Assembly: GCA_030041535.1 (NCBI GenBank)
Contig: JASHNR010000009.1
Span: 1-48,399, forward strand
Length of the DNA: 48,399 nucleotides
From: Nitrosopumilaceae archaeon
Lineage (GTDB): Archaea; Thermoproteota; Nitrososphaeria; Nitrososphaerales; Nitrosopumilaceae
Reading direction: 5' to 3'
The translations under genes and the position numbers were made by a program. This document shows positions 24,328-27,824 of the stretch, in pieces. How positions within the stretch are numbered: the stretch's first letter is position 1; each line of letters begins with the position of its first letter. The notes beneath the pieces were generated by a model that ran no database searches, was not told the DNA's origin, and worked only from the letters and a program-made list of their open reading frames with translations.

Positions 24328-24612
24328 TTACTGCCACGTTATCTTCAGGAATACAAGCGAGCCAGCAAGTTGGACTATACGAACCACAAGAACAAATGGC
24401 AAGAGTGTTGCCTGATACAGATCAAACATGAAAAAGTATGTGTATACGTTTATGGCGTTATCTAGAAACAACATTACAACAAAGAAGATCATTCCAAAAT
24501 GAACTTGGGATTTTGTCTTGGAATACATCTTTGCAAATGTGGCAATAAGGACACTGAACACGCCCATGTTTGCCATTGCAACGATAGCACAGTATGGTAT
24601 GATTGGAATCAA
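24328..24612 (-). CDS. Small membrane protein, three hydrophobic segments
   Basis: The 94-aa protein has about three transmembrane stretches: residues 2-26, 37-66 and 68-92. No conserved motif or metal ligands beyond isolated His and Met are evident. Its start overlaps the stop of the upstream winged-helix gene by 4 bp, so the two form a translationally coupled pair. By position it may be a sensor or partner of that regulator; that is inference. Confidence 0.72.
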   Translation of the reverse strand: MIPIIPYCAIVAMANMGVFSVLIATFAKMYSKTKSQVHFGMIFFVVMLFLDNAINVYTYFFMFDLYQATLLPFVLVVRIVQLAGSLVFLKITWQ

Positions 24613-25037
24613 TCTGTCATCTCCTGTTTCTTGCCCTTGTACAAGCCTACCACAAGCTCGTCAAAAACAACCATGTTTACCTCGATTAAAGTTGAAAGAT
24701 AATAGACTGTGCCATATTTTTCACCCACATGTGCTACAAGATTGTTTTTTTCAAGAACGCCTATGTGGTGCTGTATTGCCCTATAGTTTAGTCCAAGCTC
24801 CTTTGCTAGTTGATGTGCATTGAGTGGTGATTTTTTCAATGTTGTAATAATTCTTATTCTATTATTGCCACCCCTAGAGTTTGCAAAGACCATCCAAAGC
24901 AGGTTCTTTGCATACAATATATCAGATCCCCTCTGGCTAGATTCTACTGTAGTATTGTGATATGACGAGTTTTCTCTCTTGTACACAGGTGCATCTTTGC
25001 ACGATAACATAAATACATTTTTCAAGATTGAGTGCAA
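24609..25037 (-). CDS. Winged-helix regulator, second of a tandem pair
   Basis: The C-terminal part has 'AKNLLWMVFANSRGGNNRIRII', 'LAKELGLNYRAIQHHIGVLEKN' (helix-turn-helix) and the wing 'VGEKYGTVYYLS'. It is closely similar to the upstream gene and clearly a tandem duplicate. The longest frame starts at a TTG at 25037, 3 bp after the upstream stop. A GTG at 24986, about 25 bp after a GTATTTATGTTA element, is an alternative that removes a tail absent from the paralogue. Overlaps the membrane-protein gene by 4 bp. Confidence 0.8.
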   Translation of the reverse strand: MHSILKNVFMLSCKDAPVYKRENSSYHNTTVESSQRGSDILYAKNLLWMVFANSRGGNNRIRIITTLKKSPLNAHQLAKELGLNYRAIQHHIGVLEKNNLVAHVGEKYGTVYYLSTLIEVNMVVFDELVVGLYKGKKQEMTD

Positions 25038-25040
25038 ATC

Positions 25041-25346
25041 CTATTTCTTGCCTCCATAAGTCTTCAATACAATCTCATTGTATGTCTCCATATTAGCTTC
25101 AAAAAACGTAGAGAGAAAATAAGTAGCGCCATATTTTTCACCAACTTTTGTAATCAGGTTATTTTTTTCTAGCACTTCAAGATGATGCTGTATTGCCCTA
25201 TAGTTTAATCCCAGATCATTTGCAAGCTGGTTGGCATTGCGTGGAGAGTTTTGCAGTGCCGTCATTATTTTAACTCGGTTTTCTCCACCCCTTGAGCTGG
25301 CAAAGACGAAGAAGAGAAGATTTTTTGCATATGGCAAACTCGGCAT
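25041..25346 (-). CDS. Winged-helix regulator, first of a tandem pair
   Basis: This 101-aa protein is almost only a winged helix: 'YAKNLLFFVFASSRGGENRVKIM', 'LANDLGLNYRAIQHHLEVLEKN' and wing 'VGEKYGATYFLS'. It shares well over half its residues with the next gene. The ATG lies about 30 bp after CTTTAAC. It sits 87 bp from the large cupredoxin gene on the same strand; no metal-binding cysteines are present. Confidence 0.82.
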   Translation of the reverse strand: MPSLPYAKNLLFFVFASSRGGENRVKIMTALQNSPRNANQLANDLGLNYRAIQHHLEVLEKNNLITKVGEKYGATYFLSTFFEANMETYNEIVLKTYGGKK

Positions 25347-25433: not shown

Positions 25434-26801
25434 TTAGGAAACGATTATTGTTCCACGCATCTGCGAATGGATCATGCACGCGTAATCGTATGTTCCAGGG
25501 GTGTTGAATGTATACGAGAATATCTTTCCTGGCTTGATAAATCCACTATCAAACGTTCCATCTGCGTTTGCAGTTCCCGGCGTGACTGATGTGACAGTAT
25601 GTGTGGTGCCATCTGTGTTCACAAATGTTACAGTTGTTCTTGCCTTGACATTGAGCATATCTGGCGTGAAGAATGGTGATTCTAGGCCGTTGATGTATAC
25701 TGTGTTAGGTGGCGGGTTGGCATCTGTATCAGTTGAGGATGATGATGCGCCTCCAGTTGGTTCTGAGACAAACACGGTATAGTCAGTATAGGCTGCTCCC
25801 CACATGTAGTTTGAGAGAGTGCTTGGCTGGAGTTTAACATCTATAACATATGGTCCTGAACTTGGAAAGATCTCAGTCAATTCCTCCACGCCCGGATGCC
25901 CATGAATTGCTCCATCCATAGCCAATGGCCCTTCAACTGGTGCAGATTGCGCTACAATGTAGCCTTCAGTGGATATAGTAGTTTGCAGGTCAGGATGAAT
26001 AACCCTGGAATTATCCGCAGCTTTTGTCACGGTAAAGATAAAAGTTACAGGCTGTCCTGCGACAATTTTGTTAGCAGTTGTACTAAACTCTAGATTGACT
26101 GCAGTTCCAGGAACTGTTCCATTGAGTGTATGTGTCTGGTCTATGTTTTGTACATAAACTGGAAACTCAAACTCTCTAGATCCGAAATTATTTTGTGGAT
26201 CTGTTTTCCAGTCCTTTGGAGTTCCAGATAGCATTGTGTGAGTCCATCCTTTAGGAGTCGGTTCCAATCCCCCCATTGTGGTTCCAATTGATGATACAGT
26301 CAGGGATACAGTACTTTCACCTGCTGTTGGAAAAGCTACACTAAAGCCCATCTTCCCAACGTGGGAATGTGCAGTTGTTGTCTTGTAGATGAGGTTTCCA
26401 TCTGGATCTGTAACTACTATTGCCCAATCAACATGGCTGAGCCTTGCTCCAGATGCCGAGTCTTTGATTTGCATCTGGATTGATGCTAGCTGATTTGTTT
26501 GAATTATAGAGGTCGCATTAAAGTCTACTGTGACGTTACCTGATGTCTTTGAGAGTGGCGTATTCTGCATATCGCTGTCTTGTGTTTCATTTGACTGATC
26601 AGAGCCCATCGAATCTTGTCCATCCATCATCTGTGCCATATCATGAGATGGTGCAGTCATCAAATTGTTGTCTGCAGTCAGTGCACTGGCTTGCCCTAAT
26701 TCTGGGGTCTTGTCATGTGACATGAGGTCAAGCGGCACAATCATTGCAAGTACAGCAACTGTTGCTACAACTATTGTTGTAGTAGCTAGGTCTGTTTTCA
26801 T
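25434..26801 (-). CDS. Large membrane-anchored cupredoxin protein
   Basis: The 455-aa protein has an N-terminal signal anchor (about residues 7-25), then a linker rich in Met, Asp and Ser with 'MAQMMDGQDSMGSDQS'. Two beta-rich regions (about 90-210 and 225-345) follow, and a C-terminal plastocyanin-like domain (about 365-455). Type-1 copper ligands are visible: H401 ('THTVTS'), then C442, H445 and M448 in 'YACMIHSQM'. It should carry electrons outside the cell. It shares a promoter element with the smaller cupredoxin. TATA TATTTAG at 26823-26829 precedes the ATG by about 25 bp. Confidence 0.85.
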   Translation of the reverse strand: MKTDLATTTIVVATVAVLAMIVPLDLMSHDKTPELGQASALTADNNLMTAPSHDMAQMMDGQDSMGSDQSNETQDSDMQNTPLSKTSGNVTVDFNATSIIQTNQLASIQMQIKDSASGARLSHVDWAIVVTDPDGNLIYKTTTAHSHVGKMGFSVAFPTAGESTVSLTVSSIGTTMGGLEPTPKGWTHTMLSGTPKDWKTDPQNNFGSREFEFPVYVQNIDQTHTLNGTVPGTAVNLEFSTTANKIVAGQPVTFIFTVTKAADNSRVIHPDLQTTISTEGYIVAQSAPVEGPLAMDGAIHGHPGVEELTEIFPSSGPYVIDVKLQPSTLSNYMWGAAYTDYTVFVSEPTGGASSSSTDTDANPPPNTVYINGLESPFFTPDMLNVKARTTVTFVNTDGTTHTVTSVTPGTANADGTFDSGFIKPGKIFSYTFNTPGTYDYACMIHSQMRGTIIVS

Positions 26802-26822
26802 GACATGTTTTTTTGATAAAAT

Positions 26823-26865
26823 TATTTAGCAATATTTCAAAATCAAGTGCAAATTATATGCAAAT
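26823..26865 (-). promoter_or_regulatory. Cupredoxin promoter element, copy A
   Basis: 43 bp with 37 positions identical to copy B at 27586-27628. On the minus strand it contains two ATTTGCA repeats 11 bp apart, then a TGAAATATT block and a CTAAATA TATA box. The TATA lies about 25 bp before the large cupredoxin ATG. The rest of the gap 26802-27025 shows nothing clear. Confidence 0.7.
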
Positions 26866-27025
26866 CTCTAGAATTGTTTTTGCAGTCAGAAAAGATTGGT
26901 TAGAGTTATTGGATACAAAATATGAACGAGTTTTTCAGATTATTAACCGACCTTGTTGTACAAAAAATTAAAAATAGTGTGATGATATTACCAGCATGAT
27001 CTGCTGATCATATCAACATCATATT

Positions 27026-27556
27026 CTAGTCAGTTCTAGGAAGGACAATTATCTCGCCGCGCATGTTTGGCGCGTGCATTGAAGACCAAAAATCGATTGT
27101 TCCAACATTGTCTGCTGTAAAGTTAATAGTTTTCATCTCTCCTCTGTGAATGTCAAACTCTGGAGCAATCCCATCTACGGTTATTTTGTACCCAGGTCCT
27201 TGGACATCTACAAAGTTGAGAGTAACTTGGTCTCCTTGGTTTACAACAATTTGAGAGGGTTCAAACATGAACTGTCTTACCTTCCAGCCTCCCATGTTAT
27301 CGATCTTCTTTATCATCAAGCCGCCTCCCGAAGGAAGAGTTGAATTGGGATATGGTTCGGACGGGTGATCAGAAGACGGATAGATACTTGTTATGCCGTC
27401 TAGGTGAACTGTTGCGATATAGAATGTCCTCTGCGTTGAAGCAGAAGCAGTACCAGTTTGTCCAAACATTGGTCCTTCAAGAGAGATTGTGGCCATGACT
27501 CCAGCTACTGCAGCTATTGTCAGGCCAAGAATTATGCTCTTGTGTAGATTTTTCAT
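27026..27556 (-). CDS. Secreted cupredoxin-like protein lacking the copper Cys
   Basis: The 176-aa protein has an N-terminal hydrophobic signal/anchor (about residues 8-26) and one beta-sandwich domain (about 92-172) with 'VVNQGDQVTLNFVDVQG', 'HRGEMKTINFTADNVGTIDFW' and 'SSMHAPNMRGEIIV'. The fold and the H161 and M165 positions fit a CoxII/cupredoxin type. Ser158/Ser159 stand where the ligand Cys is expected, so a normal type-1 or CuA site cannot form. H137 is a possible remaining ligand. It may bind copper differently or only serve structurally. Confidence 0.78.
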   Translation of the reverse strand: MKNLHKSIILGLTIAAVAGVMATISLEGPMFGQTGTASASTQRTFYIATVHLDGITSIYPSSDHPSEPYPNSTLPSGGGLMIKKIDNMGGWKVRQFMFEPSQIVVNQGDQVTLNFVDVQGPGYKITVDGIAPEFDIHRGEMKTINFTADNVGTIDFWSSMHAPNMRGEIIVLPRTD

Positions 27557-27585
27557 ATGGTCAGAGAAATGGTCTAGTGGAAAAC

Positions 27586-27628
27586 TATTTAGTCATATTT
27601 CGAAATGACGTGCAAATTATGTGCAAAT
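27586..27628 (-). promoter_or_regulatory. Cupredoxin promoter element, copy B
   Basis: The counterpart of copy A. On the minus strand it has ATTTGCACAT then AATTTGCACGT (two ATTTGCA repeats one helical turn apart), followed by CGAAATATG and CTAAATAG. The TATA is about 30 bp before the small cupredoxin ATG. Six of 43 positions differ from copy A, mostly outside the repeats. Confidence 0.7.
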
Positions 27629-27728
27629 TGTTTTTTCTACAAGTTCTGCAATTTTGTAACCTTGGTCAAAATCAAAGATTTGTACATGAATTTGAAAAAT
27701 CTCTTTATATTATTGCAGTAGCACAATC

Positions 27729-27790
27729 ATGGTTCGATTCAATTTCATTAGTCTCTCCAGCCCCTTTGAATCGAACCAACTAAAATTTTT
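27729..27790 (+). ncRNA. Candidate small RNA with 13-bp hairpin
   Basis: TGGTTCGATTCAA (27730-27742) and its exact complement (27766-27778) flank a 23-nt loop. A TATA-like TTTATATTA at 27704-27712 lies about 25 bp upstream of the hairpin, and AAAATTTTTAAAA follows it. That is the layout of a short transcript: promoter, hairpin, T-run. An alternative is a leaderless mRNA from the ATG at 27729 encoding about 36 residues of low-complexity sequence, which I find less convincing. Confidence 0.4.
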
Positions 27791-27824
27791 AAAAATTACA
27801 AGTACAAGGTGTTTTAGATTATTC

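Follow-up and report, generated by a model that had tools for sequence, protein, structure and literature searches.

Genes and features of the cassette

The window analysed here is the whole stretch of 48,399 nucleotides of contig JASHNR010000009.1 (assembly GCA_030041535.1, a Nitrosopumilaceae archaeon), in which secreted cupredoxins, winged-helix regulators and a small membrane protein lie together in a compact cassette. In the following list, R1 and R3 are the sequence models used in the motif searches, R1 representing the three-repeat (type A) promoter element and R3 its two-repeat (type B) form.

24328-24612, minus strand: three-helix membrane protein, 94 aa, whose gene overlaps the end of wH2 (three helices predicted, at low confidence)
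24609-24986, minus strand: wH2, winged-helix regulator of about 125 aa (HTH_5, E 4e-7)
25007-25040, minus strand: type B element plus TATA box in the promoter of the transcription unit of wH2 and the membrane protein, directly after the wH1 stop codon (R3 42.3 bits, E 1.4e-10, not an independent score because R3 was built from the type B sites themselves)
25041-25346, minus strand: wH1, winged-helix regulator of 101 aa (HTH_5, E 1e-10), with no element in its own upstream region
25434-26801, minus strand: large secreted cupredoxin, 455 aa, with a C-terminal plastocyanin/amicyanin-like domain (PF00127, E 4e-9)
26822-26866, minus strand: type A element plus TATA box in the promoter of the large cupredoxin gene (R1 54.5 bits, E 2e-14), kept in seven orthologous promoters
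27026-27556, minus strand: small secreted cupredoxin-fold protein, 176 aa (PF13473, E 3e-7)
27586-27628, minus strand: type A element plus TATA box in the promoter of the small cupredoxin gene (R1 51.4 bits, E 1.8e-13), kept in six orthologous promoters
27677-27709, plus strand: type B element and TATA box before the hairpin, divergent from the small cupredoxin gene (R1 18.1 bits, weak; R3 31.5 bits, likewise not independent)
27731-27793, plus strand: candidate small hairpin RNA (12-bp stem, 27731-27742 with 27766-27777, a C-rich loop, then a T-rich end)

The host is an ammonia-oxidizing archaeon, with archaeal AmoA (PF12942) found in the source genome and in seven of the eight other genomes harboring the cassette; the Thaumarchaeota MAGs REEA16 and REEA19 are close relatives. 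Archaea of this kind rely on copper enzymes and are responsible for much of global nitrification. Two amoA genes are present in the source genome (G000:C8:1292-1840 and G000:C12:7996-8544), and two also in G018, through either a true duplication or a mixed assembly.

The large cupredoxin exhibits a complete set of type-1 copper ligands, His/Cys/His/Met (TTHTVTS...YDYACMIHSQM), conserved in its orthologs, so that the earlier note was right to call it a cupredoxin. The same label fits the small protein only in part, since in the source genome two of the four ligands are lost (His to Tyr and Cys to Ser, in the alignment with seven orthologs). This loss is restricted to the source genome; close orthologs with a complete C-terminus keep the full set, and the remainder of the protein is about 78-86% identical to them. 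Judging from these residues, the copper function of this copy appears doubtful, which weakens a copper reading for the source genome. The likeness of the small protein to nitrosocyanin (TIGR03096) is weak and sub-threshold, at 29.8 bits against a cut-off of 142.85.

The two regulators, previously described as near-identical, are in fact 63% identical over 98 residues. Their best Pfam match is PF01022, and they do not reach the ArsR/SmtB class, scoring 33.8 and 30.9 bits against the curated cut-off of 55 bits for NF033788. wH2 was given a new, leaderless start, the GTG at 24986 (ATG in the eight orthologs), about 26 nt after the type B site, and the spacing from TATA box to start is conserved in nine genomes. 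No cysteine is present in wH1, nor in wH2 from the reassigned start, in the aligned orthologs, and therefore neither carries a cysteine-based metal site; direct copper sensing through cysteines is unsupported for these proteins. The AlphaFold models of wH1 and of the membrane protein are of low confidence.

Nearly all members of the genus harbor one core copy of the wH1/wH2 family beside a three-helix membrane protein. An ortholog of the cassette membrane protein adjoins wH2 in the cassette genomes, and its paralog adjoins the core regulator. Genus members lacking the cassette have the core paralog only and no element, and the upstream regions of the core copies are likewise free of it. The region of the recognition helix reads NYRAIQHH in the cassette regulators (NYRATQHH in one) versus DYKAIQHH in the core paralogs. 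As side observations, in L110, L112-L118 and further members of the genus the core pair lies beside apparent genes for 4-hydroxybutyryl-CoA dehydratase and for acyl-CoA synthetase, and in L112 it is divergent from a CopA-type ATPase; contig G018:C261 carries two further winged-helix/membrane-protein pairs (L177 and L178), with a cupredoxin gene near the L177 pair.

A tandem-repeat element confined to the cassette

The upstream regions of the two cupredoxin genes had been reported to share 37 of 43 positions, and exactly this match was recovered as the best ungapped 43-bp alignment (26823-26865 with 27586-27628, both on the minus strand); 1000 dinucleotide-shuffled pairs gave a mean best match of 21.5 and a maximum of 28. 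The exact pattern ATTTGCA-N4-ATTTGCA occurs at two places in the 1.83-Mb genome, both of them the cupredoxin promoters; the backwards-pattern control for this count is a poor one, as the reversed pattern contains CpG. The repeat pair 11 bp apart, followed by the TATA box, was thus correctly recognized, but the description was incomplete, because a third, degenerate repeat had been missed. Indeed, the type A element consists of three direct repeats at an 11-bp pitch (ATTTGYA-N4-ATTTGYA-N4-ATTTTGAAATA) and ends at the TATA box. In the source genome the third repeat is degenerate, reading ATTTTGA or ATTTCGA before CTAAATA; the TATA box of type A promoters starts about 28-36 nt upstream of the start codon. 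The orthologous promoters of relatives keep a fixed layout without gaps, R-ATTTGYA-N4-ATTTGYA-N4-ATTTTGAAATA-N3-CTAAATA, in which the repeats run into the BRE and TATA box; the identity of the element columns is about 80-93%, that of the flanking columns mostly 30-60%. Since it overlaps the BRE region, the third repeat may be partly core promoter.

The element is indeed located at both cupredoxin promoters, as the earlier note stated, but it is not limited to them, the two-repeat form (GATTTGYAYTCAATCTTGAAAAATGTATTTATGT) being found also at the two type B sites listed above. The one before wH2, nearly invariant in all nine cassette genomes, represents an internal promoter that the first reading overlooked, as it did the hairpin, the third repeat and the further target genes of relatives. 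The other lies about 27 nt upstream of the hairpin and recurs in five orthologous intergenic regions as weak R1 matches; these copies had been picked up by R1 before R3 existed. The upstream region of wH1, which follows a T-rich stretch behind the large cupredoxin gene, has no such site.

Full type A sites were detected in seven of 250 genomes of the family (the source genome G000, G005, G018, G021, G029, G034 and G036, the last with its cassette split over two contigs), and only in the cassette. In two further genomes with the cassette (G025 and G031) contig ends cut the cupredoxin promoters, which brings the cassette genomes to nine; several of the genomes compared are incomplete. The R3 search of the 250 genomes gave no convincing match in the 241 lacking the cassette, where the best one reached 27.7 bits with no wHTH or cupredoxin gene around it; having no related genes nearby, the two-repeat match in G213 was rejected. 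A genome-wide regulon was also rejected, since there is no further strong site in the source genome.

The element is always accompanied by the winged-helix pair and never found without it (seven genomes for the three-repeat form, nine for the two-repeat form). Two genomes (G001 and G015) possess a homolog of the large cupredoxin and lack both the regulator pair and the element. Although its chromosomal surroundings are of at least five kinds, the cassette remains intact as a group. Further copies of the element stand in relatives before the divergently oriented gene of a secreted repeat protein and, in two genomes, before that of a PEFG-type surface protein. The repeat protein (L099:9543-10202, plus strand, and its orthologs) has internal repeats (MMLVA...KGG...PRP...DGIP) and no Pfam match, and occurs almost only with the cassette; as a separate observation, the cassette of G021 neighbors a gene for a CsoR-type metal-sensing repressor (L103:12607-12864, minus strand; PF02583). 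All cassette genomes belong to one genus, and the co-occurrence of element and regulators thus reflects few independent events. The identities of wH1 and those of the core regulators rise and fall together across these genomes, in a manner consistent with a mostly vertical descent.

These data strongly support the conserved regulation that had been proposed; the search of relatives suggested at that time found the element conserved near their cupredoxins, and the lack of conservation that would have spoken against the idea did not occur. The other explanation offered then, a promoter duplication, taken here as the recent copying of a single sequence without any shared regulation, would account for the 37/43 identity and for the adjacency of the two genes. 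We consider it highly improbable, as the repeats, unlike their flanks, have been kept across genomes that diverged and in front of genes unrelated to one another, and as the element, conserved and confined to the cassette, has additional copies at wH2 and at the hairpin.

As a further possibility, a single alternative TFB of the lineage, and not the winged-helix pair, might read the element, which would then be an extended BRE/TATA. Ammonia-oxidizing archaea have several TFB paralogs, and the best conserved columns include GAAATA-N3-CTAAATA, that is, BRE plus TATA. Nevertheless, conservation is almost as high in the outer ATTTGYA repeats, whose 11-bp pitch is maintained, and the distribution of the element follows the winged-helix pair exactly, so that such a reading appears very unlikely.

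The hairpin downstream of the divergent element

The sequence following the divergent type B site folds into a hairpin with a z-score of -6.3 in the source genome (from -3.5 to -6.7 across genomes), and none of 200 shuffled sequences folds equally well. The 12-bp stem, GGTTCGATTCAA with TTGAATCGAACC, is common to six genomes (97% of the cells are paired), as is the C-rich loop. A search with a hairpin model found it, among the genomes covered, at the cassette locus only; weak matches in G006, G015 and G022 are probably unrelated, the G006 sequence lacking the element. A tRNA or Rfam origin was not found; the sole Rfam 15 match, next to the hairpin, falls below the gathering score and is due to chance.

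We regard this hairpin as a candidate RNA gene, and it is possible, although we hold it for the less probable case, that it represents a palindromic DNA site of some additional DNA-binding protein, or else nothing more than a terminator, which would leave the rest of the module unchanged. In favor of the latter idea, only one compensatory pair was observed among the six sequences; the stem is so highly conserved that covariation, even with the shuffle control, gives little support for its pairing. On the other hand, in each of the six genomes inspected the stem begins about 27 nt past the TATA box, where transcription would be expected to start, a T-rich stretch follows it in five of the six, and the hairpin is retained in the source genome, from which the divergent gene is entirely absent.

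A possible control circuit and its relation to known systems

On the whole, we suggest, with a probability of about 0.6, that the cassette is a self-contained regulon of an ammonia-oxidizing archaeon, in which the paralogous regulators wH1 and wH2 would bind immediately before the TFB/TATA region and thereby activate promoters. The element would be the operator of this regulon, and the two proteins would be paralogs related to the ancestral winged-helix/membrane-protein pair. Subunits of wH1 and/or wH2 might sit side by side on one face of the DNA, on the ATTTGYA repeats spaced 11 bp apart, and assist the loading of TFB/TBP at the neighboring BRE/TATA, thus acting as activators. wH1 would be expressed from its own element-free promoter, and wH2 with the membrane protein from an element promoter, which would generate a feedback; the membrane protein, in turn, might tether wH2 or pass an envelope signal to it. 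The targets would be the secreted cupredoxins and the hairpin RNA and, in relatives, also the secreted repeat protein and the PEFG-type surface protein. That element, regulator pair and membrane protein belong together, as the earlier note already put forward, is supported by their occurring in the same genomes and by the presence of the element in the promoter of wH2 itself.

The same proteins on the same repeats might instead repress, blocking TFB at the repeats and at the BRE/third repeat until an envelope signal releases them. ArsR-type proteins often bind inverted repeats and act as repressors, a role that most ArsR-family relatives have; moreover, the third repeat extends into the BRE region, and the wH2 promoter carries the element, as in the case of autorepressors. 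Yet no repeat overlaps the TATA box or the start site, and the two outer repeats are located upstream of the BRE, the usual position of archaeal activators (PMC5512572). Repression thus seems rather unlikely to us, and, by judgement, activation is favored over it roughly 3 to 1.

Concerning the signal, the idea of a copper or redox control module is supported as far as the module is concerned, but its copper or redox part remains conjectural. Copper sensing is weakly supported, since the regulators lack cysteine metal sites and the small cupredoxin of the source genome lacks two ligands. In other genomes the surroundings of paralogous pairs contain another cupredoxin, a CopA-type ATPase or DsbD/thioredoxin-like genes; together with the cupredoxins of the cassette, these neighbors hint at copper or the envelope redox state. 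More tentatively still, and as an idea that we would not yet favor, a split, membrane-linked winged-helix system might read the state of the envelope and, via a tandem-repeat operator of 11-bp pitch that the genome uses at no other place, turn on the secreted cupredoxins together with surface proteins, the second regulator of the system itself and a co-regulated hairpin RNA, with a C-rich loop, which would act on target mRNAs, all in a compact cassette that stays cohesive across chromosomal places.

The cassette thus offers a rare and directly testable gene-control circuit, with one repeated promoter element confined to it in some ammonia-oxidizing archaea, and with the operator, the likely regulators, the membrane partner and the full target set within a few kilobases, amenable to in vitro tests with purified proteins. 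If the proposed circuit is true, it would show how an ancestral regulator-membrane pair, kept genus-wide, was duplicated and acquired a new DNA target. Our searches of the literature for regulators and for small RNAs of ammonia-oxidizing archaea returned nothing on point, and the transcriptional regulation of Cop genes in Nitrososphaera viennensis was called an open question by Reyes et al. (PMC7785015).

Among known systems, the Cu-limitation motif of N. viennensis, likewise an ammonia-oxidizing archaeon, TTCSGSMTTTGWACYANT, is located upstream of copper-related genes, and an ArsR-type regulator belongs to the induced cluster (PMC7785015). It has TTTGTAC in common with some half-sites of the cassette, a likeness of about 7 bp that may be due to chance, and it is a single GC-flanked site, unlike the tandem repeats described here. 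With the ArsR/SmtB proteins (NF033788, PF01022) wH1 and wH2 share the winged-helix fold class, but they fall below the NCBIfam cut-off and do not possess metal-binding cysteines.

The ArnR/ArnR1 system of Sulfolobus acidocaldarius, a paralogous HTH pair with a membrane link and with boxes upstream of the BRE/TATA of a surface-structure gene (PMC6396743), resembles the cassette in its paired, membrane-linked HTH regulators and in the position of the sites. However, ArnR joins sensor and transmembrane parts in one chain, whereas here the HTH and membrane proteins are encoded by separate genes, and its 15-bp inverted repeats contrast with the direct repeats of the cassette. With respect to promoter layout, a likeness exists with EarA, the activator of fla/arl promoters proposed to recruit TFB where the BRE is weak, which has four 6-bp TACATA-type sites in Methanococcus and one to three adjacent sites in Thermococcales (PMC5512572, PMC10665913). 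Both systems exhibit short tandem sites immediately upstream of the BRE (here two to three ATTTGYA-type repeats ending at the BRE/TATA) and an A-rich BRE-like sequence. The cassette differs from EarA in its targets (cupredoxins, a regulator and a hairpin RNA), in the ATTTGYA repeat at an 11-bp pitch and in the presence of a membrane partner, while sites just upstream of the BRE, typical of archaeal activators (PMC5512572), fit the activating role suggested here for wH1 and wH2.
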